Of a stretch of 64,000 nt of DNA, positions 3,613-53,236 are shown in pieces (the stretch's first letter is position 1; every line of letters starts with the position of its first letter). Made by a program: the position numbers and the translations under genes. Under the pieces are notes generated by a model that was not told the DNA's origin, searched no databases, and saw nothing but the letters and a program-made list of their open reading frames with translations. Origin of the DNA: Stigmatella aurantiaca DW4/3-1 (GTDB taxonomy: Bacteria; Myxococcota; Myxococcia; Myxococcales; Myxococcaceae); assembly GCF_000165485.1 (NCBI RefSeq), contig NC_014623.1:3057501-3121500 (forward strand). Direction: 5' to 3'.

Positions 3613-4270
3613 TCAGCAGCTCTTCCAGTCAGAGCCTCGCGACGCCCGACTCCATATCACGGAGTGGGCGACGGATTTAGTGGTGAGGCGGACTTTTGCC
3701 GGTACAACCATGCCAGGATTAAAAGGGTCGTGGATGAAAGCATCCCGCTTAGAGGTGCCAACTCTGCTTGCCTGGACTGACGTGAAAATGCACACGCCCG
3801 TTCCTTCCATTCAGGAGCAGGCTGTGTCATCGCCAGCAGGCACTCCGTATCCGCCGTTGAAATCAGCATCGATTGGCTCTCTGGGGACAGGCTGTCCTTG
3901 AAAGACATGCACCGCCAGCCGCCAGGCGCATTGAACCAGTCGCCCTGACAGCAATAGACCCACCAGAGCCTTTTAGTCTCCTCCTGCGGCTCTGGGGGGG
4001 GGCCTCCTGGATTTGAGCTTCAAAGGCCGCGAAGGCAGATGGAAGTTCATTTGTGCAAAAGCGTTGCAGTCGCCCGTTTGCCATCTTGGCGTCAGCGGTA
4101 CGCTGCGCAAGCCGGAGGCAGTTCATTCCATTGGCCGACTTCCAACAGGCGTCCTGCTCGAATGAGGCAGCCGGGGCCTTGGTGGCCGCCGCGGTCGCGG
4201 AGATGAGCAGCACGCAAAGGGTGTGAAAGCGCAGGAACAGGACTGCCCGGGTGGACCTGCTGAACCTCAT
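3613..4270 (-). pseudogene. Secreted small protein, frameshifted at a C9 tract
   Basis: The ATG at 4270 overlaps the stop of the upstream NACHT gene by four bases, so it was probably its operon partner. It begins with a signal-peptide-like segment (FLRFHTLCVLLISATAAA) and continues as a Cys-containing secreted protein (QDACWKSANGMNCLRLAQ). Frame is lost at a run of nine G on plus (3994-4002). The next frame reads KRLWWVYCCQGDWFNAPGGW, and a further shift leads to WMEGTGVCIF-type sequence ending at 3613. Either a decayed gene, a homopolymer sequencing error, or a slipped-strand switch. Confidence 0.4.
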
Positions 4271-7200
4271 AGTGTCGCGCTTCCCGCCTTTGACGGCTGG
4301 GCTGCGGGAATCAGGTGGCGGAGTGCCTCCAATAGCTCCTGGCTGGTTCCATCTTCATGGAGCCGGAGTTCGAGATCTGTGAGACTGATCCCAAGTCGCT
4401 TCATCCATTCCTGGCAAACCTTCCGGCACAGCACCTCTTGTCCTTGCCAGGCCTTCATAATGGTTGCCAGGACCGAAAGTTCATTCTGCAGGTTGAATGG
4501 AGCGTCGTGCGTGACCTCGCGGCGGATCTTCTCCTGCAGGGCGTCGACAGCCTTCGCGATTTCGGGTCTGTCGTCGGCCCGTGCTTGACCGAAATGAGAA
4601 TATTCAAGGAGTGCGATAACCAGAGCTTCACTGGGAGGTTCCATTTCTCCCATTCGGTGGATGGCAGCCCTTCTTCCTTCCAGCATGACCAGGGGGGAAA
4701 TGAGCACGCGCAAGGCCAGAGAAAGCTGGGCCAGGCGGAAGGGACCCGGCGGCGCTCTCGTGACGAGCAGTAGCGCGCTGATGTTCGAGTAGCAGAATTT
4801 AGCGATCCACCATGTCGTCAGAAGTGCCAGCACGATGGCGGGAAGCCATCCCAATGCCTTCTGTAAGACAAGGGTCTGTCTTGACAAGGGTTTGGCATGG
4901 AACGCCCCTGTAGCCGAGAATACGCGTCCGAGCAAACCGGGGTAGGCCGCCAGGGTTTTTCCAACAGCGAATGCGACGGTAACCGTCCCCAATCCCCCCA
5001 CGAGGATGTACGCGAGGATACGGCGAGTCCTAGGGCTCGGGCGGCGAATTTTGAAGGACAGCCTTGGGTGAAGATAAAGCGCACAGGCACAGGTCGCGCA
5101 CGTCCATGCTAATAGCCAGGGCGAGAATCCCTCCCATAGGGAGCCCAGCGTCGACCCCATCAGGCCCGCGACGACACCCCATCGCAGGGACTTGGATGGC
5201 GACGCCAACCAGGCTGCGAGCCACCGGGAAAACGCGGCAACGAACATCACGAGCACGCTGCAAGTCACCATGGTGGAGGATCTGCCGGGGAAGTCCAGCA
5301 CCTGGAGCATCAGGGCGGCACGTGGTGGGTTTTCAGTGAAGAGCCATTTGAAGAGCAGCGCCGTGAGTGCGACCCCGGTCCAGGTCAGGAGCGCTGCGCC
5401 ATGAACAATTAATACCAGGAACTGGCTGACCAGCGCCGAAGGGGTGGCAGGAAGGTGCCGCCTCCGTGAGAACTGGGCGAAGTAGAAGAGGATGCTCACC
5501 ACGACGGAGAAGAATGCGGAGCCCGCGCCAACAAGAAACCCGGCGGCGACCGACCAGCAGGCCGTGAGACCCACCATGAGGCCCAGATGCAGGAAAACCG
5601 ACAGCCTGAGCAGGCTGCGGAGTTCGACCAATTTGGGCTCATCCGCAAGGTAATCACGCAACCTTGGCGAGTTCAGCCACAGATCACGATAGACCGCCTG
5701 TTGTAGCATGTGAAGGGCGAGTCTGCGCTTCGCATGTGTGTCATCCGCCGCTCGGCTCGCGAGCACCTTGAACGCGGCTTCCTCTCTCCAGATCTCCGTG
5801 GAGGTCAGCGCGGCCTCGATACGAGGCGCAAGCTGGGAGTGACTGATCAGGGCACCTCGTACCGCGCGAAACAGGCGCCTCGTTCGAAGTTCGGTAAGCG
5901 GATGATTGGGAGCCTCCTGCTCCAGTCCGGCCAGCAGCTTCGCCATGCGCGTGACGACGGGATGGTCCTCGGGAAGCCGTGCGGCTTCGAACATCCGTCC
6001 CATCAAGATCAGCCTGGACTCGTAAGTGAACTCCGCGGCGACGTCGGCACTCCGAAGTGCCGTTCCAGGAGACACGCCAAGGTGTTCGTCCGCCTCGTCC
6101 AAGACTGCTTCCGCGAAGGTGGACAGGTCGGCACCGGCTTGCGCGACTAGGAGGTAGACCTCCTCAAGCCAGGGATTGTCGATGTTGGCTCCGAGCCATT
6201 CCTCCCGCTCTTCGGGCGGGGCCCGGGTCAGCACGAGCGCGGCGAAGAATTCCTGAAGCCTTGGGTGGAGGAAGCGAAGGGCGCCCGTAGCCACGTCGCG
6301 CTTCACAAAGCCGGTGAGCTGCGCAAGGTCGACCCATCTGGCGCCTTCCTCGGGATCGATCCTGGCGTGTGCGATGGTTTGATGGACGGGGACGGCGGTC
6401 CCTACTCCCGCGCAATCGAGCATGGCAAGGCCCAGCCGCCCTAGACTCTCCAGGAGCACGATGCGCTCGACGCTCGGGCGCAAGCTCACGGCACGGTCAA
6501 GATGGGGATCCACGAAGCCCTGGAAGAGCTCGGCACGAGATTCGGGCAGTATGCCCCTGGCCACGATGTACCGCCCAAGCAGCGTGAGGAAGAGGGGGTT
6601 TCGCGCGAGTCCCGCCAGGGGTGATTGGGGCGCCAGGACTTGATGAATGAGGTCTCCCCTGCTCCACCAGGGCACCTTCAGGACCCGGCGCAGGAAGGTC
6701 CTGGTCTGCCGAGGAGAGAGGGGCGAGAGGCGGACCTGATGCACCTTGAGCTGGCTACGAGGAAAGTCGTGGGTCCTGCATGAGACCAGGATCCGGCACA
6801 GGGTCTGGCGCTGCATGAAATCGCGCAGTGTGGCGACGCGCGCTGAAAAGTCCGCGCGTGGCATCTCATCCATGCCGTCAAAGAGCAAGACCAGCCGTCC
6901 CGCGGCGAGGGATTCCTCAACGAGAGGCATGAGGGCTCGCTCGGGCGCGGGGCCATTCGCAAGGCGCTTCTGGATGAACTCCTCGACGGGGAGGGGCGCG
7001 CCTGCCCGGTATTGGGTATATGTCCCCAGGGAGAAGTACAACGGCAGGGGGGCTTGTGGATTCTTCAATGCTGCCTGGACTAGCTCACGCGCAAGCCGAC
7101 GCATGAGGATGCTTTTTCCCGCGCCGGGTTCGCCCAAGAGCGCCAACACGCGCCCTGTTCTGGGCTCATTCAACAAGTGAAAGAGCGAACGGCGTGTTCG

Positions 7201-8673
7201 TCTGATAAGCCGACGAAGGTGTCGTGCGAAGGCAGGAACCGGGTGGGTCTTCTCCCCTTCGAAATCGGGATGGGGGTCTACCGCGGGCGTGGTGATGTCC
7301 TTGCTCAGCTCGATGTATGCGTCGGGCGAAAAGAGGTTCTCGTCCTCGAGTTGCTCCAGACGGGCCAGGAGTGAACGGAGGTAGCGCTCCCGTTCGAAAC
7401 CGCCGGGAGCCGCCCGGTTGGGGCCTGCGGACGATTCCAAGCCTTGGATGAGCGTCGCGAGCTCCTGGACGACCTTCGCGTAGCCCTGCTCCAGGGGGCC
7501 TTCGGTCAATGCCTTTCCGTGACTCGGAAGGCCTTGCAGGTGGGCGAAAGACGCGTCCTGCCAGTGGCAGGGCTCAATAAAGATGGGGAGTACCCGGGCC
7601 TGGCCTAGCTCGTGTCGTTCCAGGGCTCGTTTGAGCTCGATGTCCCAACAATAGTTCGACGCCAAGAACCCCTGACTTACCAGCACGAGAATCAGGTCCG
7701 CGCTCTCCAGATGAAGATGCACGTCAGGCTCCCATTGCGCTCCGATTGCGATTTTCCGGTCATACGAAAGCTTGATCCGTCCGGACCGGATCAATGGAAA
7801 CAGGTGACGTTCGAGCGCGATTCGATGAGGCGTGTCCGCGTGGGTATAGGAGAAGAACAGCTTCAAGGGCCGGTGCGACTCGTCAGCTGTTTCGGGCTCC
7901 GGCTGTGTCTCAATGTCGGCGGAAGCCCGCTCCAGCGACGCGAAGACGATGCTCCCTAGTGCATCGCGTGTACAGGAAAGCCGCCCTGTGCCAAACCGGA
8001 GGCACTGCGCGATGACCAGGGGCCATACCAGCGGTGCGCTGTCTCCAATGCGCGGGATGTCGCCCAGCATCATGAGTGCAGACTGCTCATGAGGCGCATT
8101 GGCCTCCACATCCATGACGACAACCCTGACCTTCTTGCAGAAGTGGACGAACCTGTTCTCTGTCATGGGGAGGGAACCGAGGGCCATAAACGCGTCCGCC
8201 ACGTCCTGCCGGAAATCCTGCAGGACCTTGTCCTCTTGTTTCGAACGGGGATTGTCCGGGTAGCCCGCCTCGTTCAGCCGGATGGAGAGGAGGAGCTTCT
8301 TGAGATCATCCTTGATGCGCTGGGAGGCCCGCGGAGAAACGATGAGGACGAAGTGCTCGTTCTCTCCTGGGTGAACGAGAAAGCGGGACACGAACTGGTC
8401 CAGGACGCCGCGGAACTCGGAGTCCTCACCACTGGACAGATTAAGTGAGCGCTTCACCTGGACAAGAAGTGAATGGCTACCGGCGCGGAGCAGGAGGTCG
8501 TCGATGGCCGCAGAGGTCTCCCACGACAGGGACTCACTGACGAAAGGAGCGTCGAGTTCAAGATCTTGCGCGAGGTCCTTCCCCTTGAGCAGGGCCACGG
8601 CGAACCACGCACTCACGCGCTGCTGGAACTCGATGCCCCCATGTGTCGCGGCACCGCCACCTGAGTTCGACAT
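4267..8673 (-). CDS. DUF4297-like nuclease + TIR + NACHT + membrane domain, STAND defence protein
   Basis: 1468 aa, intact. (1) Residues 1-130: GGIEFQQRV opening, D58/D59 and VQVK (71-74), the PD-(D/E)XK layout of DUF4297 nuclease effectors. (2) About 270-405: TIR domain, LKLFFSYTHAD, CWDIELKRAL with E346 at the position of the catalytic glutamate used by NAD-cleaving TIRs. (3) About 505-815: NACHT ATPase, Walker A GEPGAGKS (514-521), Walker B LLFDGMDEM (596-604), and FLHPRLQEFFAAL. (4) About 1020-1310: several hydrophobic helices, probably six to nine membrane spans, then a soluble tail. Family knowledge: STAND NTPases sense phage proteins and switch on a fused effector. Two effectors in one chain with a membrane module instead of TPR/LRR repeats is unusual. 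Defence role is inferred. Confidence 0.85.
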   Translation of the reverse strand: MSNSGGGAATHGGIEFQQRVSAWFAVALLKGKDLAQDLELDAPFVSESLSWETSAAIDDLLLRAGSHSLLVQVKRSLNLSSGEDSEFRGVLDQFVSRFLVHPGENEHFVLIVSPRASQRIKDDLKKLLLSIRLNEAGYPDNPRSKQEDKVLQDFRQDVADAFMALGSLPMTENRFVHFCKKVRVVVMDVEANAPHEQSALMMLGDIPRIGDSAPLVWPLVIAQCLRFGTGRLSCTRDALGSIVFASLERASADIETQPEPETADESHRPLKLFFSYTHADTPHRIALERHLFPLIRSGRIKLSYDRKIAIGAQWEPDVHLHLESADLILVLVSQGFLASNYCWDIELKRALERHELGQARVLPIFIEPCHWQDASFAHLQGLPSHGKALTEGPLEQGYAKVVQELATLIQGLESSAGPNRAAPGGFERERYLRSLLARLEQLEDENLFSPDAYIELSKDITTPAVDPHPDFEGEKTHPVPAFARHLRRLIRRTRRSLFHLLNEPRTGRVLALLGEPGAGKSILMRRLARELVQAALKNPQAPLPLYFSLGTYTQYRAGAPLPVEEFIQKRLANGPAPERALMPLVEESLAAGRLVLLFDGMDEMPRADFSARVATLRDFMQRQTLCRILVSCRTHDFPRSQLKVHQVRLSPLSPRQTRTFLRRVLKVPWWSRGDLIHQVLAPQSPLAGLARNPLFLTLLGRYIVARGILPESRAELFQGFVDPHLDRAVSLRPSVERIVLLESLGRLGLAMLDCAGVGTAVPVHQTIAHARIDPEEGARWVDLAQLTGFVKRDVATGALRFLHPRLQEFFAALVLTRAPPEEREEWLGANIDNPWLEEVYLLVAQAGADLSTFAEAVLDEADEHLGVSPGTALRSADVAAEFTYESRLILMGRMFEAARLPEDHPVVTRMAKLLAGLEQEAPNHPLTELRTRRLFRAVRGALISHSQLAPRIEAALTSTEIWREEAAFKVLASRAADDTHAKRRLALHMLQQAVYRDLWLNSPRLRDYLADEPKLVELRSLLRLSVFLHLGLMVGLTACWSVAAGFLVGAGSAFFSVVVSILFYFAQFSRRRHLPATPSALVSQFLVLIVHGAALLTWTGVALTALLFKWLFTENPPRAALMLQVLDFPGRSSTMVTCSVLVMFVAAFSRWLAAWLASPSKSLRWGVVAGLMGSTLGSLWEGFSPWLLAWTCATCACALYLHPRLSFKIRRPSPRTRRILAYILVGGLGTVTVAFAVGKTLAAYPGLLGRVFSATGAFHAKPLSRQTLVLQKALGWLPAIVLALLTTWWIAKFCYSNISALLLVTRAPPGPFRLAQLSLALRVLISPLVMLEGRRAAIHRMGEMEPPSEALVIALLEYSHFGQARADDRPEIAKAVDALQEKIRREVTHDAPFNLQNELSVLATIMKAWQGQEVLCRKVCQEWMKRLGISLTDLELRLHEDGTSQELLEALRHLIPAAQPSKAGSATL

Positions 8674-26946: not shown

Positions 26947-26978
26947 GACAAAGGCTCCGAACTACAAATCGGGGACAT
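26947..26978 (-). promoter_or_regulatory. Late bipartite element, copy 2 (tail chaperone block)
   Basis: On minus: ATGTCCCCGATTT, ten bases, GCCTTTGTC. It ends 17 bases before the start codon at 26929; the intervening bases include GGAGGAAGG. Confidence 0.6.
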
Positions 26979-27020
26979 GCGAGACCGGGAGGGCCCTTCG
27001 GCCAAGCGGTCCCCCGTGGT

Positions 27021-29159
27021 CTACACGTCGGCGCGTTGTCGCGTGCCGGCCAAGTACTCCTTGAGCTCGGACTTCATCGCGGTGGTTCGAGCTTCGACGA
27101 CCACCCGGACGTCGGCCGTAGGCTTCCCGGTGGGATCGACGAGCGTCGGGTCTATGCCGAGCTCCTTCGTCCAGTCGTCGACCTTGAGCGTCCCGGTCTT
27201 GAAATCGTGAACCCGCTGCAAAAATGCGCCGAGCGGCTCGGCCCCCTTTGCGATGTTGAAGGACTTCTCGAGCAAACAGCAATTGCCGAGGGCGTTCATC
27301 GTCGTCGACAGGTCGTCGGCGCTCAGCGCGCTATCGTCCTCGGGGTCAACCTGTGGTTGCGCGCCAGGCAGCGTCTCCCAGAGCTTGACCGCCACAACGT
27401 GGTCGACATCGAAGCTCAAGCTCCCGCGCTTCGACTCCCGGAGAGAAATCGCCGACGCCTTCCATCTCTGCGTATCAATCCGATGCCAGAGCCACAGTGG
27501 CAGATAGTAATCGTGCACTCGGTCGCGGGTGAGGACTGCGAGGTCGTCGATGTACTTCGATGATTCGGCTTGCAGCGCACCGTTCCACGCTTCCATGCGG
27601 GCCTTGAGTACAGCGATGACGTCGTCGGGCGCGGAGAGTGACGAGATCTTCGTCCAGTCGGCGGCTAGGTCCTTGACATAATCGGCTAGCGCCTTGTCGG
27701 TCGACTTTCCCCATCGGCCCGACCACTGCGACATGAGAATCCACCGATCACAGTTGTTTCCGAATGCGGCGTCGAGGGCCTTTTCGAACCCGTCCTTGGC
27801 CAGCACCGATAGTGGGTGCGTCGCAAGCCACTGTCGGCCAAGCAGCCGCCAGGCGAGCAGCAATGTGAGGACGTTTAGTGACCGATAGTGCGTGCCGAAA
27901 TGGAAGCTTCGGTCGTCCACGAGCTTCGCGCCTTCGATGGCATTCGTCGAGACAGTTTCCCAGCTATTCACCAGGTCCTGTGCCATCGGCCGCACCTTCT
28001 CGCCGCGAAGCAGGTCGGTTGCCGTCAGCAAGGCGCCATCTCCGTGGAGTACTGACCACATCGCAGAGACGGAGCCGACGAGTGCATCGATGTCAATGTT
28101 CACCTTCTCTTCGGCAAGCGCTTCGCTCAGTTCTTCGAAGCATCGGCCCGCAGTGCGATTGCCGGTCTTGCTCGCATCCCAGCCGGTCTTGATCCAGGCG
28201 AATGTGATCTCCTGACGCGTGAGAGCGCGACCGGCCGTGTTGAGTCTGGTGAAGATGTTGACGATGGCGTCGTTGTAGAGGTCCTGGCTGAAGACCTCTG
28301 CGTTGAACGGCGCGAGCTGAAGGTAGGACACCTTCGACAGCTTAATCCCAACGAGTGTCACAACTAGTTCGGCGAGCGGCTCAAGCACGTCGTCGATGAC
28401 ATCCTTGGGGACATCATGCAATTCTAGGAGTGGCTTGAGCTTGTCGCGGAAGTACTTCTCAAACAGGCCAGCCTGCGTCGACGCGAGATCCCATAGGCGG
28501 CTTAGGCGAATGAATCGCCCCTTATTCTCCGCGTCATGCGTGCTCGCGATTGGATGCTTGTAGTTGACTGGTCTCTTCAGTGTCGACCGGCCCTCGGTGG
28601 GGCTTTGGACAACCCATGACAATACGTCGCGGAAGTCAACGTTCGCGACGCCGCCCGCTGACTTTACACGATCGCGGAACGACCACACGTCGAGGCAAAG
28701 GTGGCCCATCGACCAGTGGCGCCTTGCGTTACGCCCTCGAGGCCGCTCTGCGTCGAGGACTGTCGACCACTCTTGGTCTAGTAGACGAAAACCCCAGCTA
28801 TCACCGCCGAATGCGAGCAAGAGGCTTTGCAAGCGCTGTTGGCCATCAAGGACCATGCGGAATTCCGCTGGCGGGTTGCTCTTGCTGACCTGCTCGTCGC
28901 CGAACTCGCCGGTGCGGTCTGCAACACGCCAGAATGGCCGCGACGGAATCCTTGCGAGGTCTTCCTTGTGCACCTTCCAGAGGAGTAGGGTGCCGAACGG
29001 CCAACCGCGGAGTAGCGAGTCAACGAGAAGCGTGACTTGGCTTGGTGTCCAGACATACGGGCGCTGAAGGTCAGGCACGAGCAGCGTCGCGCCTTGGTCG
29101 GAACTCGACCCCTTGAGGAGTTCGTGCAGTGGCTCGGACCCTTCATCATAGATTTTCAT
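27021..29159 (-). CDS. DUF262/DUF1524 (GmrSD-like) restriction-type protein
   Basis: 712 aa from the ATG at 29159, preceded by AGGGG. N-terminal DUF262: [34 protein letters not shown] and the [11 protein letters not shown] signature, a ParB/Srx-like NTP-dependent fold. C-terminal DUF1524: [20 protein letters not shown] and [17 protein letters not shown], an HNH-related nuclease with the DH pair and distal Asn. This is the domain order of GmrSD-type IV enzymes, which cut modified phage DNA. It lies between the tube and chaperone genes on the late strand with lower GC, so it is a transferred moron; superinfection exclusion is inferred. Confidence 0.85.
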
Positions 29160-29248
29160 AGGCACCCCTGAACGGAGAGCCTCTATTGTACGTGTGTCCG
29201 AGCAGGCGCAGGAGGTGGTTCAGTAGTGACCCGGGGCTATGTCAAATC

Positions 29249-31057
29249 TCACCGTGGTTTGGTGGGCGCGCGGCGCCGTGTCCGGCTTGCGCCGGCCGGT
29301 TTCCGCGCGCCCCCAGCCGAACCCGGCGTGCACCTTTCGTTGTGCACCGGGCTCTCCCTCGACGTTGACGCGAAGTCGGGGGTCTTCATCCACGCGTGTC
29401 TATACCGTTCAACGCGCTGACGCACCATCTCGAATGGGACGGTGCTGCCCTCGCGCCATCGCCACGTACGGCCGCCTGGCTTTCGCCAGCCGTATTGCGC
29501 GTAGAGGCGTCGCATGCCGACCTTTGTGTGCTTGGCAGTGAGCCATCGGCGAATGGTCCACCACACGTGTGAGTCGAGGGCGGCGAAGACGCGCTTCGCC
29601 CCCCATGCGTGACGATAGTAGTTGCTCCACCCGCGCAGGGTTGGGTTGAGCAGGTCGAGGCGCTTCTTGAGCGTCGCGTTGCGCGTATCGCCGCGGAAGT
29701 GCTCTCGGACCAACGAGCGCAGACGCTTGCTGCGCTCCTTGGGGATGACGCACTTGCTGTTCCACCCGTACATCGGGCTTCGCTGCACTCGAACATGGTG
29801 CCCGAGGAAGCGCATCGGGCTCGTCACTGGTGTGATGGCCGTCTTCGCTTCCGAGAGTTCCAAGTTCAGCGTCTCCTTGAGGAGCGCTGCGAGAGCGGCC
29901 TTCTCTGCGAGCGCAGCCGTACGGGCCCGTTCATGACTGCCGGGACCGGGCTTCGCACCCACGAGAATAATGAAGTCATCTGCGTACCGGATGGGGACGA
30001 GCACGAGTCGGCCGTCTCTTCGCGACCGCCTGTCGTTGTTGCGATTCTGCGCTGCTCGTAGCTGTACCATTCTCGTGTCGTGCAGGAGCGTCGGCGTCCG
30101 GCGAGGCCACACGTGGCGCTCGTACCGTTCGTCGATGACTGCCAGCGCGATGTTCGCGAGAAGAGGTGACAAGATTCCGCCTTGGGGCGTGCCGGTGCTG
30201 CTGCGGAGGAACTGCTCCTCCGCCATGACACCAGCCTTCAAGAACGCCACGATGAGCCGATTCACCTTCGTATCGCCGACGCGACGGCGAACCCGCTCCA
30301 TCAGACCGTGATGGTCGATGTTGTCGAAGCAACCCTTGATGTCCCCTTCGATGGCCCACTGGTATGGGAGTCGAATCTCGGTCCCGGCTTCGGTGTTGGC
30401 GTGCTGAGGGAGGAGCAGCTTGCGCAGCTCCTCCAGTGCCGCATGCGCGCTTCGACCGGGCCGGAATCCGTACGAGGACGGGAAGAAATCCGCCTCGAAT
30501 ATCGGCTCCAGGATGTTCTTCACGGCTGCTTGTACGACCCTGTCTCTCACGGTCGGGATGCCCAGGGGGCGAAACTTCCAGGGCTGTCCTGGCTTGGGGA
30601 TGAGGACGCGCCGGACGGGGCAAGGTCGGTATGCGCCGGAGCGCAGTTCCTTCCGTACCTCGTCGATGAACGTGTCCACCCCTTTCGCTACGACCTTCCT
30701 GGCCGTGAGACCGTCTACGCCTGCTGTGCGTCGTCCTCGATTGCTGGCGACTCGCGCAAAGGCAGTCCGCAGGTTGCGGGGGTCGGTAATGAGGCCCCAC
30801 AGCTTGCAGAAGACGTAGACGGGGTTTTCATAACTTCGCGCGTACAGCTTCCGCTGCTCGTTCAGGAGCCAGCTCCGGTCGGAACTGGATGCCACATACG
30901 TGGCTTTCCCCTGCGGCTTTGGCGCCGTACTCGTTGACTGCCTCCCTTCGCCATGTGCACGGCTCTCCCGCGCTCGGACTACTACGGAGGCTCCGTCCCT
31001 CGCGTGAGACGTCGCCGGACTGGACGGCTTGCCGGGCTTCGCGGGCTCGGCGCTCAC
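29249..31057 (-). CDS. ltrA: Group II intron reverse transcriptase/maturase
   Basis: 602 aa from a GTG at 31057. RT blocks in order: WKFRPLGIPTVRDRVVQAAV (160-179), SSYGFRPGRSAHAALEEL (194-211), WAIEGDIKGCFDNIDHHGLM (234-253), GTPQGGILSPLLANI (289-303) and the active-site YADD (358-361), so the enzyme looks catalytically intact. The maturase X domain follows (GWSNYYRHAWGAKRVF, RRWLTAKHTKVGMRRL). No HNH/En domain is seen before the end, as in intron classes that use nicked or single-stranded targets. The frame continues through domain V to its stop at 29249. The first 55 residues are low-complexity and may be untranslated. Confidence 0.9.
   Translation of the reverse strand: MSAEPAKPGKPSSPATSHARDGASVVVRARESRAHGEGRQSTSTAPKPQGKATYVASSSDRSWLLNEQRKLYARSYENPVYVFCKLWGLITDPRNLRTAFARVASNRGRRTAGVDGLTARKVVAKGVDTFIDEVRKELRSGAYRPCPVRRVLIPKPGQPWKFRPLGIPTVRDRVVQAAVKNILEPIFEADFFPSSYGFRPGRSAHAALEELRKLLLPQHANTEAGTEIRLPYQWAIEGDIKGCFDNIDHHGLMERVRRRVGDTKVNRLIVAFLKAGVMAEEQFLRSSTGTPQGGILSPLLANIALAVIDERYERHVWPRRTPTLLHDTRMVQLRAAQNRNNDRRSRRDGRLVLVPIRYADDFIILVGAKPGPGSHERARTAALAEKAALAALLKETLNLELSEAKTAITPVTSPMRFLGHHVRVQRSPMYGWNSKCVIPKERSKRLRSLVREHFRGDTRNATLKKRLDLLNPTLRGWSNYYRHAWGAKRVFAALDSHVWWTIRRWLTAKHTKVGMRRLYAQYGWRKPGGRTWRWREGSTVPFEMVRQRVERYRHAWMKTPDFASTSRESPVHNERCTPGSAGGARKPAGASRTRRRAPTKPR
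29264..29356 (-). ncRNA. Group II intron domains V and VI
   Basis: Domain V on minus (29356-29319): GAGAGCCCGGTGCAC, loop AACGAAAG, GTGCACGCCGGGTTC, the expected 34-38-nt hairpin with a GNAA-type loop. After a six-base linker, domain VI (29312-29264) is closed by GGGCGCGCGG pairing perfectly with CCGCGCGCCC. Both lie inside the maturase reading frame. Confidence 0.75.
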
Positions 31058-31472
31058 GTGAGGTTCCCAGGTTCACGAGGTTGACCCTTGATGCTGTAGG
31101 TGGCCAGCTCTACCCCTGATCGCGCGGACTGCTCTCCGTTTCGGGGCAAGGGAGCAGCGTGTCCAGAGTGGACACACGCAGCCGGAGAACTAAGACCGGC
31201 CGCGCTCAGGCGACATTCCCGCGTGAGCGGGCTTTCTTTCCGTACAGAGGCTTGCATCGCTGACTTCAGGTGAGAGGGACACCGCCCTCTCGTCTTCACC
31301 ATGGCATCTGTGGTAGCCCGCCTGGGAGAGCAGTGCCCTCCGTGCGGACAGTTCAGGCCGTTCGGCTTTTGCAGGCCGCCGGTTCCATCTCGGCGACGTT
31401 CACGGCCCCCTTCTGCACCCGGCCCGACCCGGGCGAGGATGACGTCTTCTAGGTCATCGGTCTTCCTCCTGC
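31058..31472 (-). other. Intron 5' RNA region, no gene seen
   Basis: 415 bases between the tube stop and the maturase start. ORFs here lack ribosome sites and protein-like composition. Content is consistent with intron domains I-III (several short GC stems and GAA-rich loops), but I could not fold it or locate EBS motifs with confidence. Confidence 0.45.
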
Positions 31473-31940
31473 TTATCCTGGCGCACCCAGCTCGAAGAAG
31501 TCGTAGGTGAGGGTGACGGACTCGATGACGTTCTCATCCGACTCGTTGTCCCATTCGCCTGCGACGAACTTCACTGGCCAGGCGTGCGCGAGGCTCCACC
31601 GGCGCAGCGTGGTGCCGTCCCTGTCCTGCTGGACGATATCCAGGTTGCGCTTGTAGAGGCTGTCCGGAAGGCCCAGGCCGCTGGTGGTGTGCACGACGTC
31701 CTGGAACCAGTCGAATAGTTCGTGATCCTGCGTGGCGCCGCGCTCGAGGGTGACGTCGGAGAACGTGAGGCGCCCCGGGGACTTGTTGGGGATGAGGCTG
31801 CCGCCCTCGAAGTATTGGATGTTGGCGACCTCGACGGACAGCTCGGAGCATTTTTGAAAGCCCGAGTGCCCGAGGCCGTCGGCCTCGCACAAAAACTTGA
31901 AGCGCTTATGGAAGCTGCGCGGCTGTCCGATGATGGCCAT
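31473..31940 (-). CDS. Tail tube protein, gp19-like
   Basis: 155 aa. [40 protein letters not shown]-type spacing ([20 protein letters not shown]), [11 protein letters not shown] and [20 protein letters not shown] are typical of the T4 gp19 / conserved phage tail tube family shared with injection systems. It stacks as hexamers inside the sheath. The last codons as written (ELGAPG) read into the putative intron 5' end; splicing would replace them with ELDGEI or ELANHGEI, depending on the exact 3' splice site. Confidence 0.9.
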
Positions 31941-31951
31941 GGCGAGGCTCC

Positions 31952-34169
31952 TTACAGGCCCGCCGAAGCCAGCTCGGCTTCGAGGGCGCGGGTGTCCTGG
32001 GCGATGCGCAGGACAATGAACTCGGCAGGCTTGTTGGTGGCGAGCCCGATGCGCGCCACCAGCTTGCCGGCGAAGACCACGGACGGCGGATTGAGCGCGT
32101 CCGAGACGTCAACGAAGAAGGCCTTGGCGGGCTCCTGACTGCGGAAGGCCCCGTTCTTCATCTGCGCGAGCAGGAAGGCGGCAATGGAGCGCCGTACCTG
32201 GGCGCGCAGCCCCTCGGTGTTGTTGCGGTGCCGGGCGAATTGCAGCCCCGACTTGAGGCTGCGCTCGATGAAGGACACCCCGCGCCGCTCTGCGACGTAG
32301 GGGAAGTTGCCGCTGGCCTTCAGCGTGCGGCTGCCGTCGATGAAGCGCGGCAGGCCGGGCCCGGTGGTGAGCGGATTGATGCGGCGGGGGTAGACGAGGT
32401 CCCGCTTCTTCTCTTCGAGGCACTCCTTGGACTCGAAGCCCAGGACGCCGAACATGCGCCCGGCCTCGATACCCGCGGGAGCCTCGTACACACCACCGGG
32501 GCGCGCGCCGTCGTTGCGCGCGAAGACGCCGGCGATGATGCCGGAGGGTGGGATGACGAGCTGCTCGAGGTTGCCGAAGACGCCGCGGGCGGGGTTGAGC
32601 ACCTTGACGCGGGGCCAGTAGAGGGCCGCGTGCTCAGAGAGCCCTTCGAGGGCGGCCTCCTGCGAGACGTAGGAGACGATGTCCGTGGCGCTGTAGCCCG
32701 CGGGCGAGTCGAGGACGGCGAAGACGAGGCCGTCGCGCGCCACCTCGCAGTAGCGCACCATGGCGTTGTGGACGGCGGGCGTGGCGCGCCCGGGTACCAG
32801 GAGGAGGGAGAGGTCCTGCACTTCGTCGAGCGCGTAAAAGACCGCTCCGGCCGGCCTCCGAGCCGATGAAGTCCGCGTCGTCCAGGCCGACGAGGCCGTC
32901 CGCGCCGCCCGAGAGGGCAACCGTCTGCACGTCCGGAATCGCGTCCGGTTGCACCATGAAGGCCCGGACGTAGGTGGAGCCGGTTCGCTCGTCATTGAGG
33001 ACGCGCTCGACGTAGCGTGCGTCGCCCTGGGCCGAGGAGAGGTTGGGGAAGGACTCGCGGTAGGCACCGTCCTCGAGGACGAGGACGTCGAAGGTTTCGG
33101 GAGCTCCATTCGTCGGGGGCCGCACCTCCACCTCGAGGCGGTTGGCGTAGGCGCCCGCATCCCTGGCCTCCAGGTGGAGGACGTCGGTGGCGCCGGAGGC
33201 GTCGCCTGTGTGCAGCAGCGCGTCGAGTCCGAGGCCGGAGCCCGCGTCTCCCTGCACACGCAAGGAGGCACCAGGCCCCGTGGACTGGGTGAGCAACTGC
33301 AGGGCCCCCAGGGAGGACGGTGCCACTCGGACACCGGCCACCGCTGCCTCCACGAGGGCGCGCACCTCGGCCAGCTCGACGGCGCGCAGGCTCTGGACGT
33401 TGCCGCTCCCCACCTGCGGGCCGCCCGCGAAGCCGAAGACGGTGTTGGCCACCGCGTCGCCCACCTCCAGGCGGCTGGAGGCGCCCTGGGTGTCGCTGGC
33501 GATTCTCAGCACGCCGGCCTCCACGGTGGCGCGTCCGCCGATGAGTCCCGCGTTGAGGACGGCGGCCACCTCCTGGGCAGTGGCCTGGGTGATGTCGCCG
33601 AAGTCCTCCTCGCTGAAGGGGATGAAGACGTCCCGGCCGTCGTCGACGCGCACCCGGAGCGACTGCCCGGCAGTGAGGGTGTAGGGGCCGGGACGGCCCG
33701 CGGAGACGGAAGCCGCGGTGCCGGAGAAGACGACGTCCACTGCCTCGGCGGCGTTGGCGGACACCTCCAGGCGCTGGCCGTTGGCCAGGGTGAAGGGGGG
33801 ACGCAAGGTGCCGCGCACGACGGCGGGCGTGGGCCCGCCGCCCGTGGTGAGGGCCGCCGCAGCAGGCGTGGCCGTGTGCGACTCGGGGTCGGAGGCGTCC
33901 TCGTAGTGGACGGTGCGCACCGCCCAGAAGTGGCTGCCGCCCTGCTCGAAGAAACCCATGGCGGCGAGGGCCAGGTCCGAGTCCGGCGTGAAGCCGCCGA
34001 AGGTGGCCTGGTAGTCCTCGAAGGAGGTGCACAGCACGGCCTGGCCGATGGGGCCTCTCTCCGCCAGGCCTACGGCCCCCACGACGGAGGTGGGCGCCGA
34101 GGGAATGCCACGGACGCGCGGCTCCTCCTCCTCCACGACGACTTTCGACGACAGCAACTCACGACTCAC
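31952..34169 (-). CDS. Contractile tail sheath protein, one reading-frame break
   Basis: About 738 aa from a GTG at 34169 ([24 protein letters not shown] upstream). The N-terminus [20 protein letters not shown] and the C-terminus ([40 protein letters not shown]) are sheath hallmarks, with a large inserted beta domain between. Frame breaks near codon 444: GGT CTT TTA CGC runs out of frame, whereas dropping one T of 32836-32839 restores [20 protein letters not shown], exactly the sheath consensus. Either a +1 slippage site, a real mutation, or a sequencing indel. Same TTA context as terminase and capsid. Confidence 0.88.
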
Positions 34170-38502: not shown

Positions 38503-39443
38503 TCACAACTGCACGTTGATGGCCTTGGCCGTGCCGGACTCCTCGGCGAACTTCGCGTCGAAGCGCAGCGTGGCCACCACCTTCAGCGTGCCCTCGGAGA
38601 TGTCGCGCGCCGACTCGATGCGAATCTGCCGCCAGATGCCGACGTGGATGTTCTTGGGATTGGTCAGCAACACCGCCGTGCGGTCATTCGTCGCACCGAG
38701 GTTCTCCGGCCAGAGGGGGATGGGCCGCACCGGGACGCCCGAGTAGAGGACCGGCGCATCGCCCTCGAGGAACTTGTCGCCGACCGCCGTGGCCCGCTCC
38801 GCGAGCGAGTTCCGGTAGTCCAGGTCTGCGTCTACGCTGGTAAGAGGAACCCCATGCTGCTCTTGTCGCGCAGGTGCTCCGAGGGCAGCGACTTGAGCAA
38901 GTCGCCCAGGACGTCCTTGCTGATGGGCGCGCCGGCCGCGTCCACGACGTTGCTGGTGGCCTGCTTCAGGACGCCGTCCAACGTGGCCAGGAACGGGTCC
39001 GCCGAGGCCGTGTCCCCGTTGACGAGGATCTCCTCCATGTCGCGGCTGATGGCATCCGCGAGCATCTCCATGAGCGTCTGTCGCAGCTCGCCGCGCTCGA
39101 TGCTGTCTTCGAGCACTTCGTCGGAGAGGCGCACCTCGCCCTTGAAGAGCTTCGCGTCCAGCTCCACCTGGGAGAGGTCGGGCTTCACGCGCTGGGCGGC
39201 GGGGACGGCGGTGGCCTCCTGGCCCGGGCGGAGGATGCGGCTGCCGAACTTCAGCTTGGAGAACTGTTGCTTGGGCGCCGCCATCGGGACAACGGTGCAC
39301 TGCTGCAACAGGACGGACTGCTTGATGAGCAGGCGCATGAACTTCTGCGCCTGCGCGGGCTGGAGAATGCCGCCGCCCGCCGTGAGGTCGGCGAGGGCCA
39401 GGTCGGCCTTCTCCAAGAGGGCACGGTTATCGATTCGACTCAT
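38503..39443 (-). CDS. Major capsid protein, one reading-frame break
   Basis: About 313 aa in two frames. The N-terminal 200 residues ([60 protein letters not shown]) are a HK97-fold capsid with the long helix and E-loop region. Frame is lost at TTC CTC TTA CCA GCG TAG (TTA at 38841-38843). The C-terminal domain continues in the -1 frame ([40 protein letters not shown]). A -1 slip, a one-base loss, or a two-base insertion near CTTAC would all explain it. The truncated form would lack the P-domain half. Confidence 0.85.

Positions 39444-40174: not shown

Positions 40175-40178
<4 letters not shown>
39489..40178 (-). CDS. Scaffold-like / second XkdF-region protein
   Basis: 229 aa. Opening [20 protein letters not shown] followed by [11 protein letters not shown] is the sequence that usually follows the XkdF protease domain in one chain; here it is a separate gene overlapping the upstream stop by four bases. 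The remainder is Ala/Glu-rich helix ([20 protein letters not shown]), an acidic stretch ([13 protein letters not shown]) and a coiled segment ([20 protein letters not shown]), as in capsid scaffolds. Likely cleaved during head assembly. Confidence 0.65.
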
Positions 40179-41519
<1,341 letters not shown>

Positions 41520-41527
<8 letters not shown>

Positions 41528-41705
41528 CCTGGAGGCCCTCCGGGTCGAAGCCCCACGCCAGCTCTCCCGAGGTGGGGAGGTTGAGGTCGCGAGGCCAGAC
41601 GATGGGCGTCGCCTCGGCCTTGGCCGTGGAGGTCGACTCCTGCGTCGTCGCTTTGCCCTCCGGCGTCGGAGGTGAGGTGGGGGTCGGTGTCGAGGTGGCC
41701 TGCAT
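41520..41705 (-). CDS. Small protein before the methylase-protease gene
   Basis: 61 aa, MQATSTPTPTSPPTPEGKAT then IVWPRDLNLPTSGELAWGFD. Low-complexity N-terminus, conserved-looking C-terminus. It begins 20 bases after late element copy 3 with a GGAG site, and overlaps the methylase-protease start by eight bases, so it may mainly couple translation. Function unknown. Confidence 0.55.
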
Positions 41706-41725
41706 GGCGTTTCGTCTCCGAAAGA

Positions 41726-41757
41726 GACAAAGGCCCGCGGCGCGAAATCGGGGACAT
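41726..41757 (-). promoter_or_regulatory. Late bipartite element, copy 3 (protease/capsid block)
   Basis: On minus: ATGTCCCCGATTT, ten bases, GCCTTTGTC, ending 20 bases before the 61-aa gene. It sits between the MuF stop and that gene. Confidence 0.6.
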
Positions 41758-41760
41758 CAC

Positions 41761-42840
41761 TTAAGTGACGGCGAGCGTCGTGGTGCGGCAGAGGCCGTGG
41801 TACGGCGGGAAGCCCACGCCCGCGTCCGCGAGCTGCCTGTCCGAAGCGAGCGAGCGGAACTCGCCGACGTCGTCGCGTGTGCCGACGGCGGAGCGGAGCA
41901 CCTCGGCCAGGCGCGTCTGTTGGCCTCCTCGGTTGACGTAGAGGACGGCGCGCCCAGTGTCCGCGTCGAGGCGCTCCCTCACCCAGGGCAGCTCCTGCTT
42001 CACGTCCTCCGGCTGCTCGAGTGACTCCAGTCGCTCGAAGCGCTGGAGGGCCTCGCCCACTGAGAACGTCTTCCCATGGAGGAAACGGCACACCTGGGTG
42101 GTGGCCTCGTCGAGGACGGCCTCGATGCGGTAGCGGCGGATGCCGGCCTCGGCGTAGCTGCTCATCTGACTGAAGGAGCGCCCCTGGCCGATGAAGTGGC
42201 TTGCCACCACCTCCCAGTAGAAGGGCGCTCGCTCGATGAGCGCGCCGCGTGCGGCCCGCTCCAAGGACTCGGCGATGTCGCTTCGCCCGAGGCCTGCTTC
42301 CAGTCCCTCGGCCAAGAGCCGCCGTGCCTCCTCGCCGAAGGCGTCCAGCCGGCGCCCGTACTCGTCCCGGACGAAGTTGCCCTGGGTGCGGACGATGTGC
42401 TGGGCAACGCGCTTGTCCATGGCGTTGAAGCGGGCGGCGAGGGCGAGGCCCTGCTCGCGGCGGGCATGGCTGCGGGTGGACGCCACCACCTCCTGGGCTG
42501 CGTCACCGAGGGGCGCCTGGATGCGGGAAGGGATGACGGCTGTCCGCCGGCCCGCGGCCTCCAGGGACTGGGAGACGAGACGCCTGCGCTGGGCCGCCGA
42601 CGTCTTCCTCCAGTCCACGTCAAGGACGGCCACCGCCTCCCGCATGACGTCCACGTCCGCTCGCCCGACGGCGCGGCGAAGGCGCGCGGCGAGCAGGGCC
42701 ACGGCGCGGTCCATGCCTGCGGCGGTGCCGACGTCCAGGGCCTTGGCCACCGGCAGTCTCAGGACGTCTCCCAGGAGGGCGTCCGCCGCCTCCCGCGCTT
42801 CGTGCAGGAGGAGGAGGCTGTCAGCGGGGACCGTGCACAC
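41761..42840 (-). CDS. MuF-like head morphogenesis protein
   Basis: 359 aa from the GTG at 42840 (CTVPADSLLLLHEAREAADA), with AGGAGG six bases upstream. The C-terminal part carries the phage MuF signature: ALIERAPFYWEVVASHFIGQ, RIEAVLDEATTQVCRFLHGK, FPPYHGLCRTTTLAV; C and H residues form the typical LDxxTxxxCxxxxG...HPxCR layout. MuF proteins bind the portal and enter the head, and can be fused to toxins; no toxin domain is evident here. Confidence 0.82.
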   Translation of the reverse strand: MCTVPADSLLLLHEAREAADALLGDVLRLPVAKALDVGTAAGMDRAVALLAARLRRAVGRADVDVMREAVAVLDVDWRKTSAAQRRRLVSQSLEAAGRRTAVIPSRIQAPLGDAAQEVVASTRSHARREQGLALAARFNAMDKRVAQHIVRTQGNFVRDEYGRRLDAFGEEARRLLAEGLEAGLGRSDIAESLERAARGALIERAPFYWEVVASHFIGQGRSFSQMSSYAEAGIRRYRIEAVLDEATTQVCRFLHGKTFSVGEALQRFERLESLEQPEDVKQELPWVRERLDADTGRAVLYVNRGGQQTRLAEVLRSAVGTRDDVGEFRSLASDRQLADAGVGFPPYHGLCRTTTLAVT

Positions 42841-47825: not shown

Positions 47826-49091
47826 ATGGCACTTCGAACAGCCTCAATTGTGGTCCTCTGCATGTTTGCATCCCCGGCCGCCACTCAGCCTGCGCCACCT
47901 GAAGAGCGCTGCGCAGACGTCCTAAGAGTTGGATTGCAAGATGTTTTTCAATTCAGCGGAAGCTACTCGCTCGAACGCGCGATGTACCAGAAATTCTGCT
48001 CGGATGAGAGCACGACGCTCGGGAGGAGTGGCGACCTTGAAGTGGAGGGGTACGGAGCCTTGGGCCTCTCGCAGAATGACGAATTTAAGAAGAGCATTTG
48101 CGACACGAAGACCGATGATATCAAGCTGAATACAGCTATCGCCATGTACTCGAAGTACCTATCTAGATACACACCAAATGCTATCGCGGCGTGGTCTGAG
48201 TGCATTCAGAATGTGCGCTCAAGCGGTGAGGAGAGCGGAGCGTTCGCAAAGGTCACGAGCTATGATCCAAAGGATGGACGTTTCGTTCTGGAGCTGGGTT
48301 GGCGTCGCATCGGCACGTCCGTGCCGCCACAAACAAGGTCCTTCGAGTTCGGGACGGTAAAGTGTACCGGTCCGCTTCCAAAGGCGAATGATAGGCTGGA
48401 CGAAGGTGCCGAGCGGTTCAGTTGCCAACGAGCGGTGACGCCTGGCTCGCCTCGACAGATGTTGATCTGGAACCTTAAGCACAAGGCTGGTAACCGGCAG
48501 CTAAAGATGACTGTGTCAGATGGGCCGATTCTCCCTGCCATTACACAGCTATGCGAGCGTCCTGATGCTTGGCGTCATAGGCAATGCAACCGCTGCGATG
48601 CGGACCTCACAAAGGATCCTAGGAACTGCGGCTCATGTGGGACTGTTTGCGCAGGCGGACAGTGTGCCGACGGATTCTGCACGTCCTGTGTGCTGGCGTT
48701 CGAGGAAAAGACGCACGCGCCGACGGCTGTTTCTCCGGTGTACCAGTTGACCTGCAAGAATATGCGCCCGGGCACTCTAGTCTCCGTAGCCGGGTCAGGA
48801 ACGATGGACTCTACCCTGGACATCGCGAGCAACGCGGGCAGGGGAATCAAGTACTGGACCGATTCGCTTCTCCAGAGTTCGCTGTGCACAGCGCCGCTCA
48901 ACGGATTGCTTGATGGCGAGCGGCCACCTAAGCTGAACTTCGCGTGCGCTGGTACTGTTCCGAAAAGTGCCGGCTACCGTGGAACGGATGTCACAGCCGA
49001 CGTCTTTGTGAGCAGATGCCAGCGCGACTACGGAACTAACGTTTGCCTGATGAAGAGCGACTGGAAGCTCTCCATCGGAGCGCAACAATAG
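47826..49091 (+). CDS. Secreted Cys-rich protein, myxobacterial type
   Basis: 421 aa from the ATG at 47826, with GGGAGG seven bases upstream. Signal peptide (ALRTASIVVLCMFASPAATQ). The centre holds CNRCDADLTKDPRNCGSCGT followed by VCAGGQCADGFC, a Cys-rich knot common in secreted myxobacterial proteins. The remainder (LELGWRRIGTSVPPQTRSFE; VYQLTCKNMRPGTLVSVAGS) has no assigned domain. GC is lower than in phage structural genes. Probably host-derived cargo between lysis and packaging genes; function unknown. Confidence 0.65.
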   Translation: MALRTASIVVLCMFASPAATQPAPPEERCADVLRVGLQDVFQFSGSYSLERAMYQKFCSDESTTLGRSGDLEVEGYGALGLSQNDEFKKSICDTKTDDIKLNTAIAMYSKYLSRYTPNAIAAWSECIQNVRSSGEESGAFAKVTSYDPKDGRFVLELGWRRIGTSVPPQTRSFEFGTVKCTGPLPKANDRLDEGAERFSCQRAVTPGSPRQMLIWNLKHKAGNRQLKMTVSDGPILPAITQLCERPDAWRHRQCNRCDADLTKDPRNCGSCGTVCAGGQCADGFCTSCVLAFEEKTHAPTAVSPVYQLTCKNMRPGTLVSVAGSGTMDSTLDIASNAGRGIKYWTDSLLQSSLCTAPLNGLLDGERPPKLNFACAGTVPKSAGYRGTDVTADVFVSRCQRDYGTNVCLMKSDWKLSIGAQQ

Positions 49092-51750: not shown

Positions 51751-53236
51751 TCACCCAATCACCCGCACCCCAATCTCTCCGGTCCCTCGCCGCTCCGGCC
51801 CTCGCTCTCGCTGACAGGCGAGGACGACGGCCCAGAACTTGTCCGCGTGCCCGCGGTTGGTGCGTTCAGCGTCGAAGGACACCTTCCCCGAGGGCAACAC
51901 GCGCCTCTTAATAGAGTGAATTTGCCCGACAAGCTCACGCTCGCGCGGCAGGGTGACGTCGCGGCGCTGGAGCAGAATTTTGAAGTCGGTCGCCCAGCGC
52001 TCCTTGGACTCGTTCGTGAAGTTCTCCGCCACCACCTGGGGGAAGTCGCGGGCGAGGTTCTCCGCGAGGTTCATGCCGATGCCGCTCCGGTCGACGCTGA
52101 GGCGCGCCACGGGCAGGACGGAGAGGAAGCGGCGCAGATGGGCCTCCTGCTCCGCGAAGGGGACGCCCTCGAAGCTCTTCAGCATGCGGCACGTGAAGCG
52201 GCCCGCCACCTCCTCGAAGACGGCCAGCTCCGAGCGGTCTCGCGTGCGGCCTATGTCGAAGCCCGCCACCAGGCGCCCCTGGGGCACGGGCACATCGGAG
52301 GTGTCCTGGGCGAGCGGTAGCTCGTCGGTGGTGCACGGGAGGATGAGCTCGTAGGGCAAGAAGCTGTAGGACTCGTCGACGTAAAAGGCATTCGAACTCC
52401 TGCTGGAAGTCCTCCTGCGGCAGGGAGTCGAACTGCTCGATGAGGACGGGGCGCCCGAAGCGGACGACGCGCTCCTCGGTGGACATGAGGGGGGCTTCCA
52501 CCGCGGCGCGTCGCACGTCCAGGCTGAAGAAGCGGCACAGCCACCAGGGCACCTGCTGGCGCGTGTGGTGCGGGTACTTCCGCAGCTCCTGCGAGGCGAT
52601 TTCCCAGAAGATGCCGCGCCGGCCCAGCGGCGTGCTGCAGCCCGTGAGCTGCCCGTGAGAGCGCAGGATGAGTGCGGTGCTGCCGGTGTAGACCTCGCGG
52701 TCGTTCACGTAGTGCGCAAGCTCATCAAGGTACGCATCCCCGCGCTTGCCGCGTGGTGGCTTCGAGGGCACGGAGATGATTCGCGAGAGCCGCCGGCCCT
52801 TGGCGTTCGACTCGAAGGCCAGCTCCGTCTTCGCGTCAGTGACGAGCTTCTTTTTGAATGCGAGGGGTAGCTCTTCGTACACCTGCCGGGCGATGAGCAC
52901 CTTCTCCACGGCGTCGCTGAGGTTGTACGAGACGAAGACCGCCGTGTGGCCGTCACGCAGGTGGCAGCGCGCGAGAGCCTCGAGGGCGAAGAGGAAGGAG
53001 AAGCCCACCTGGCGGCTCTTCGCCACCCAGCGGAAGCGGGAGCGATTGTCCAGCAGGGCCTGCTGGTAGGGCTCCAACACCACCGGCTCGCTGTCGTAAT
53101 GGCACAGGCCGGAAATGAATCCGGACTCGGTGGCCAGCCACTGGGTGAGGTCATCCTCGGTGCGTTTGACGATGCCGAGTGTCAAGGTGCCCTCTCTGCT
53201 TGTGTCGTTGCTTTCTTTCGGCACCAGAGCGTGCAT
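51751..53236 (-). CDS. Terminase large subunit, one reading-frame break
   Basis: About 494 aa from the ATG at 53236; TTG at 53185 with GAGAGGG is an alternative. ATPase: [20 protein letters not shown] (Walker A-like, 68-87), [11 protein letters not shown] (167-176, Walker B). Nuclease: [34 protein letters not shown] and [12 protein letters not shown] supply the acidic residues. Frame breaks after codon 284: TGC CTT TTA CGT; reading on one base later restores [18 protein letters not shown]. The A-run on plus is 52383-52386. This is the same +1 context as in the sheath gene. Function: ATP-driven DNA packaging and cutting. Confidence 0.88.

Follow-up and report, generated by a model that had tools for sequence, protein, structure and literature searches.

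Probable programmed forward frameshifts at in-frame UUA codons in three virion genes of myxobacterial prophages

Three virion genes of a contractile-tail prophage in Stigmatella aurantiaca DW4/3-1, encoding the terminase, major capsid and tail sheath proteins, very probably depend on obligatory programmed forward ribosomal frameshifts of +1, +2 and +1, respectively, at CTY-TTA-C sites. Conservation and selection are the grounds on which we call these shifts programmed. That the step is translational, that it proceeds by re-pairing in the P site and that the capsid shifts by +2 rather than −1 are what we infer from the sequences. Because the breaks are conserved across many bacterial species, they seem to be an intrinsic property of these genes and not damage, and may serve as a switch.

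Results

The window, the 64-kb stretch analyzed here, is part of a 10.26-Mb single-contig genome and carries the prophage on its minus strand. Its genes include terminase, portal, Mu F-like protein, a methyltransferase-protease fusion, capsid, neck protein, sheath, tape measure and baseplate hub. Profile matches (PHROG, Pfam) confirmed the identities of terminase, sheath and capsid, each match being split at the break in its gene (Table 1). No DNA match was found among isolated phages, and at the protein level there were two, at 38–40%. The N-terminal part of the prophage terminase is identical to that of viral contig IMGVR_UViG_639857000. Rfam searches of the window returned no matches at gathering scores.

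Table 1. Parts of the three interrupted virion genes and their shift sites, in window coordinates
Feature	Coordinates	Strand	Evidence
Terminase large subunit, 0-frame N-terminal part (ATPase), ending at the shift-site CTT	52385..53236	-	PHROG and Pfam terminase matches; 284 codons checked
Terminase putative shift site CTT TTA C, +1	52381..52387	-	Present with 1-nt surplus in 26/26 close homologues
Terminase C-terminal part (RNase H-like nuclease), +1 frame, beginning TAC GTC GAC	51751..52383	-	Terminase_6C, phrog_5713; dN/dS 0.14
Major capsid protein, 0-frame N-terminal part	38844..39443	-	Phage_capsid; phrog_1623 positions 3-202
Capsid putative shift site CTC TTA C, +2 (or −1), GGGG just upstream	38840..38846	-	2-nt surplus in 23/23 close homologues; SD-like pairing
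Capsid C-terminal part, shifted frame, beginning ACC AGC GTA GAC	38503..38841	-	phrog_1623 positions 200-304; dN/dS 0.11
Tail sheath, 0-frame N-terminal part	32838..34168	-	phrog_15814; coding phase
Tail sheath putative shift site CTT TTA C, +1	32834..32840	-	In 17/26 close homologues
Tail sheath C-terminal part, +1 frame, beginning TAC GCG CTC GAC	31952..32836	-	Tail sheath PHROGs; dN/dS 0.17

Each gene breaks frame at an in-frame TTA. An earlier note made from the sequence alone had placed breaks in these three genes, and all three lie on the minus strand where it put them. The terminase reads GAA TGC CTT TTA CGT CGA CGA, and its nuclease half resumes one base on as TAC GTC GAC GAG (YVDE). 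The sheath, whose open reading frame extends from 34412 although homology and coding phase start near 34168, reads GGT CTT TTA CGC. The capsid reads GGG TTC CTC TTA CCA and resumes two bases on. The terminase break falls between the ATPase and nuclease parts, while the capsid and sheath breaks fall inside a single domain. Annotation can go astray at such breaks: the match of phrog_22646 to the terminase 0 frame (51935-53236) runs up to residue 391, about 107 residues beyond the break, so this family seems to have been built from truncated translations.

The site motif is marked by its position rather than its abundance. CTTTTAC occurs in the window only at the terminase and sheath sites (1.06 occurrences expected by chance), and CTYTTAC only at the three sites and in one opposite-strand copy at 45763 (3.31 expected). 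On the prophage strand, in-frame TTAs with a clear upstream coding signal comprise the three sites and those at 48088, 49039, 51145 and 51166, which sit in weakly coding stretches. As the earlier note had supposed for high-GC genomes, TTA is very rare in the host, at 33 of 104,182 codons or 0.32 per 1000 (230 ORFs called in 400 kb). Among the 32 host TTAs with both neighbours, none is preceded by CTT and one by CTC.

Substitution phase located the frame changes independently of the motif. Frame calls from 24 overlapping sets of relatives, two of which cover the same phage, placed changes at 52380/52379 in the terminase, with 443 nt of open 0 frame beyond, and at 32840/32839 in the sheath, with 204 nt beyond. 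A third change, at 38869/38868, fell 26 nt away from the site in the capsid. The remaining direct frame changes lay less than 50 nt from a stop codon, except for three short blips (86, 40 and 51 nt). In the window the capsid 0 frame stops 3 codons past the TTA, so proximity to a stop does not by itself mark the capsid site.

In a scan of in-frame TTAs, 66 of 72 in phage regions coincided with a frame change, against 0 of 3 in host regions; all 66 belong to the same three genes, and the phage loci overlap, so they do not count as distinct sites. Control codons in phage regions coincided with a frame change at 4/122 TGT, 2/45 ATA, 21/268 AGA and 45/1390 TTG positions. Counts were raised for CTT (119/929) and CTA (51/220), which we take to be due to lying in or beside the same sites.

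The terminase break is universal among close relatives. A search of 96 family genomes with the terminase N-terminal part found 37 places in 25 genomes. All 25 close terminases (at least 87%), from 15 genomes, require +1 at CTT TTA C. Genome G093 has one more copy, which is decayed and retains only residues 1–44 and 241–284 of the N-terminal part, 2.4 kb apart, but keeps CTTTTAC and the +1 step ahead of an 89% identical C-terminal part. With this copy included (a second G093 piece, residues 2-46 of the same decayed gene, was left out before counting), all 26 close terminases are broken at CTTTTAC, across 16 of the 96 genomes and four genus codes. The ten distant terminases (at most 79%) are all single-frame and do not have the site.

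Two further collections, which overlap with each other and with the family genomes, gave the same division. Among 43 terminase loci in genome_contigs, 15 of 15 close ones are broken (Myxococcus, Corallococcus, Citreicoccus and a Myxococcaceae MAG); 26 of the 28 distant loci reach the site and all 26 are unbroken, the two falling short being left out. In viral contigs, five close loci are broken and nine distant ones unbroken.

The capsid follows the terminase, and the sheath is polymorphic. The capsid search yielded 35 places; 22 close copies and one clipped by a contig end, 23 of 23, have CTC TT/AC with a 2-nt surplus, while none of ten distant capsids has it and all ten are unbroken (G076:1-105 and G109:C39, which end short of the site, were left out). 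Among 26 close sheaths, 17 have CTTTTAC with a 1-nt surplus and nine have CTC TAC or CTT CAC with no surplus; distant sheaths are unbroken in 9 of 9 (matches below 40% and G091, which covers residues 150-294 only, were left out). Nine close sheaths do without the shift, which is thus dispensable in this gene. Mapped on a tree of the sheath C-terminal part, the broken and unbroken states require five changes, and well-supported branches force two of these, so gain, loss or exchange of the sheath site must have happened repeatedly. Uninterrupted close relatives, which the earlier note proposed as a disproof, number 0 of 26 for terminase and 0 of 23 for capsid.

Selection past the breaks acts on the shifted frame. 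Pooled dN/dS in the terminase (28 distinct sequences) was 0.19 for the N-terminal part, 0.14 for the C-terminal part in the shifted frame and 3.05 for the same stretch in the 0 frame. The corresponding values were 0.45, 0.17 and 3.64 for the sheath (17 sequences) and 0.10, 0.11 and 2.12 for the capsid (22 sequences). Purifying selection is thus seen past the breaks in the shifted frame but not in the 0 frame. The 0-frame tails themselves are variable in the terminase, which stops 11–149 codons on, and in the capsid (3, 59 or 86 codons); the sheath 0 frame stops 67 codons on in 16 of 17 copies.

The site stays fixed while its surroundings diverge. Around the terminase site, third positions vary at 229 of 260 codons upstream and 172 of 197 downstream, and CTTTTAC is constant in every close locus read. 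This invariance is drawn from loci gathered by protein matches on both sides of the break; the dN/dS sets were gathered by the site motif and so are no test of it. In all three genes, re-pairing would land exactly on the residue that comes next in unbroken homologues. As the note proposed, terminase and sheath share CTTTTAC and would regain frame by +1. A conserved frame change and site amid diverging flanks, and purifying selection in the new frame, are two hallmarks of programmed frameshifting that these genes show. The GTMGACG-like sequence downstream, which the note had offered as a shared signal, was rejected: unbroken terminase and capsid homologues also carry it, and there it encodes VD.

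The direction of the capsid shift is the point on which an alternative survives best. Either −1 or +2 restores the frame, as the note recognized, and −1 is the commoner direction among known cases in excerpts of a recoding review (PMC5009743). We consider −1 unlikely and +2 the best reading. A −1 shift would add a leucine, whereas +2 gives the exact length of all ten distant unbroken capsids; pairing after −1 would be poor at CTC or TTA, whereas CTC to CTT is cognate; and the other two sites shift forward.

Separate synthesis of the two halves is a considerably weaker proposition. C-terminal parts could be made from internal starts and assemble with their N-terminal partners, and the terminase break does fall at a domain boundary. 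The capsid and sheath breaks, lying within one domain, do not. No start codon is conserved in the shifted frame between −90 and +57 of the terminase or capsid site, the commonest being present in 5 of 28 terminases and 1 of 22 capsids. All 17 broken sheaths have a C-frame GTG 15 nt in, though this encodes a valine shared with unbroken copies.

Slightly less probable again is a change at the RNA level, by polymerase slippage or editing, or decoding by a tRNA that reads four bases, either of which would likewise restore the frame. A run of four Ts is short for polymerase slippage, and the capsid site has no run. No tRNA gene was found in the 64-kb window, and a single four-base-reading tRNA cannot yield both +1 and +2.

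That the prophages are dead and the genes pseudogenes is a shade more doubtful still. Multiple breaks in essential genes would suit mutational decay, and the G093 copy is truly decayed. But the break falls at the identical base in every close terminase (26 of 26) and every close capsid (23 of 23), and dN/dS past the breaks is 0.11–0.17, where a pseudogene would be under relaxed selection. There is next to no chance that the breaks are sequencing or assembly indels: the terminase and sheath sites do have a short T run, but the same breaks recur in genomes assembled into one or two contigs and in numerous drafts of differing origin, some with SPAdes-style names, distant homologues lack them, and the capsid has no run to explain two extra bases. 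Decay and indels, the alternatives that the note itself had raised, are both rejected because break and TTA occupy one position in many separate assemblies, with purifying selection on both sides.

Forward re-pairing at UUA would explain all three sites by a single rule. The ribosome would decode CUY with tRNA-Leu(GAG), and the next codon, UUA, which its rarity suggests is slow, would wait in the A site. During the pause the peptidyl-tRNA-Leu would release its codon and re-pair 1–2 nt downstream, from CUU to UUU in terminase and sheath (+1) and from CUC to the overlapping, fully cognate CUU in the capsid (+2). Reading would restart at UAC or ACC and yield the full-length virion protein, so that re-pairing while UUA waits could account for both +1 and +2.

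The host appears equipped for such slippage. Its prfB gene reads GGGGG CAT CTT TGA C, so +1 slipping on CUU is to be expected in the same cell. The note's appeal to slippage at a slow TTA, by the logic of prfB and Ty1, gains support from this signal and from the retention of break and TTA. Among 47 host tRNAs found are one tRNA-Leu(UAA) and one tRNA-Leu(GAG) gene, and the idea that the host has no tRNA for UUA was accordingly discarded. That UUA has a tRNA to read it counts against the model.

The shift may be aided, as it is in prfB, by Shine-Dalgarno (SD)-like sequence that lies a short way upstream in the capsid and sheath genes. At the capsid site its pairing is about −5.9 kcal/mol at a spacing of 0-2, against 1.6 to −2.2 at a spacing of 0-4 in five distant capsids and −8.6 in host prfB; the sheath has pairing of about −6 close by. 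The terminase sequence lies 5-9 nt off and is also present in unbroken homologues. Pairing of equal strength occurs at 10% of other positions in the sheath gene, 12% in the capsid and 25% in the terminase, so SD-like sequence lends modest support. No conserved downstream structure stands out at the sites. The 56 nt past the terminase site are the least structured among the windows compared, and upstream stretches rank at 6-13%.

The prophage has a relative nearby. A second terminase copy, 93% identical over the 201 bases searched, lies 101.8 kb on, and a second related prophage, oriented like the first, is found some 102 kb downstream (L003, L004; G000:C1:3182000-3221999). Its terminase and capsid are broken and its sheath is unbroken. 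Excerpts of a myxophage review (PMC6070905) describe Mx alpha of M. xanthus as also occurring in successive units, of about 80 kb each.

Other genes in the window bear on its wider content. One ORF at 40175-42091, in the head module, joins a D12 adenine methyltransferase to a head maturation protease, an unusual fusion. An insert between tail genes (26964-31520) is missing in most relatives compared (mean coverage 0.7 sets) and encodes a reverse transcriptase (29249-31057, phrog_1423) and a GmrSD-type nuclease (27021-29165), and is thus perhaps a spot for defence cargo. Near the prophage, 4267-8673 encodes a 1468-aa protein with TIR and NACHT domains, likely a defence or signalling protein.

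Discussion

A suspected UUA bypass in the terminase of Streptomyces phage phiHau3 was already known; new here are the occurrence in myxobacteria, the involvement of three virion genes within a single phage, a probable +2 shift and deep conservation. A natural +2 frameshift would be unusual. Smith et al. 2013 is reportedly the primary paper on terminase bypass in phiHau3 and prophage StrepC.1.

The Streptomyces phages show their surplus as short inserts. In the terminase genes of phiHau3, GreenWeasel and BroPlease, GGC is followed by 10 extra nucleotides, TTACTCCGGT or TTACCCCGGT; this insert begins with TTA and has no counterpart in Zemlya or Danzina. A further insert of 10 nt, TTAACGGTCC after TCT and likewise starting with TTA, occurs in phiHau3 and GreenWeasel but not in BroPlease. 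Each insert (L243:2614-2623 and 2924-2933; L266) closes with a codon that specifies the same amino acid as the take-off codon. The GreenWeasel terminase gene is annotated as three pieces and that of BroPlease as two. Excerpts of the recoding review state that the phiHau3 and StrepC.1 terminases may bypass, exploiting UUA (PMC5009743).

The myxobacterial terminase site resembles that of phiHau3 in the gene concerned, in a UUA right after the take-off codon with which the surplus bases begin, in the forward skip and in a high-GC host with a developmental cycle. It differs in that 1–2 nt are skipped rather than 10 and landing codons overlap the take-off codon instead of lying separately some 10 nt on, and in that three virion genes are involved, against one in the Streptomyces phages, of which we examined terminase alone. 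The terminases are unrelated and the hosts belong to different phyla, so the same gene has met the same codon in two phyla.

Other known sites share parts of this arrangement. As in prfB (excerpts of PMC3711429), CUU occupies the P site before a codon whose slowness we take from its rarity, the terminase and sheath shifts would be +1, and a GGGG just before the capsid site may act like an SD sequence. Unlike prfB, the A-site codon is the sense codon UUA, not the stop UGA, there is no release-factor autoregulation, the capsid shift would be +2 and the terminase SD-like sequence lies further off. Ty1 (CUU AGG C; excerpts of PMC5009743) likewise puts leucine CUU in the P site and a rare sense codon in the A site, but this yeast retrotransposon makes a Gag-Pol fusion and re-pairs on UUA via a tRNA of another anticodon.

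Phage PSA also has forward frameshifts in two structural genes. Its shifts, at a proline codon adjoining a pseudoknot or a stop, add a version of the protein with an extended C terminus. A complete and conserved 0-frame product was not found at the myxobacterial sites, where tails vary and the capsid break is mid-domain. Because the break lies inside the core protein, the shift would be needed for the main product, unlike in PSA.

We found no report of frameshifts in prophages or terminases of myxobacteria in the open-licence papers searched. Excerpts of PMC3711429 do not mention capsid or Myxococcus, those of PMC10885494 do not mention terminase, sheath or Myxo, and those of the myxophage review PMC6070905 mention neither frameshift nor terminase.

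The sites may connect virion production to the state of the cell. If decoding of UUA competes with the shift, output of virion protein should rise as charged tRNA-Leu(UAA) falls, and on this hypothesis the sites could act as a gate that responds to the condition of the cell. Alternatively, selection may only keep virion genes low in lysogens. Excerpts of the 2016 recoding review state that no starvation-specific product of a hungry codon was known, that regulatory bypass would broaden interest and that UUA in Streptomyces phages was the best candidate (PMC5009743).

We tentatively suggest, while thinking it somewhat less probable than its opposite, that phages of multicellular, high-GC bacteria with a developmental cycle have converged on forward re-pairing gated by UUA. 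Those of Streptomyces and those of myxobacteria would each have set UUA frame traps in essential virion genes and make virions only when tRNA-Leu(UAA) is scarce, because of the growth stage, because the cell starves or because the tRNA itself is attacked. In myxobacterial phages there would be as many as three of these locks, including a natural +2 shift. A shortage of charged tRNA-Leu(UAA) would, if UUA decoding does compete with the shift, increase the output of all three proteins at once. Regulation through UUA can be tested directly in this prophage family, which offers three sites within a single phage, sheath alleles that are naturally broken or intact, and copies in the genetically tractable Myxococcus.
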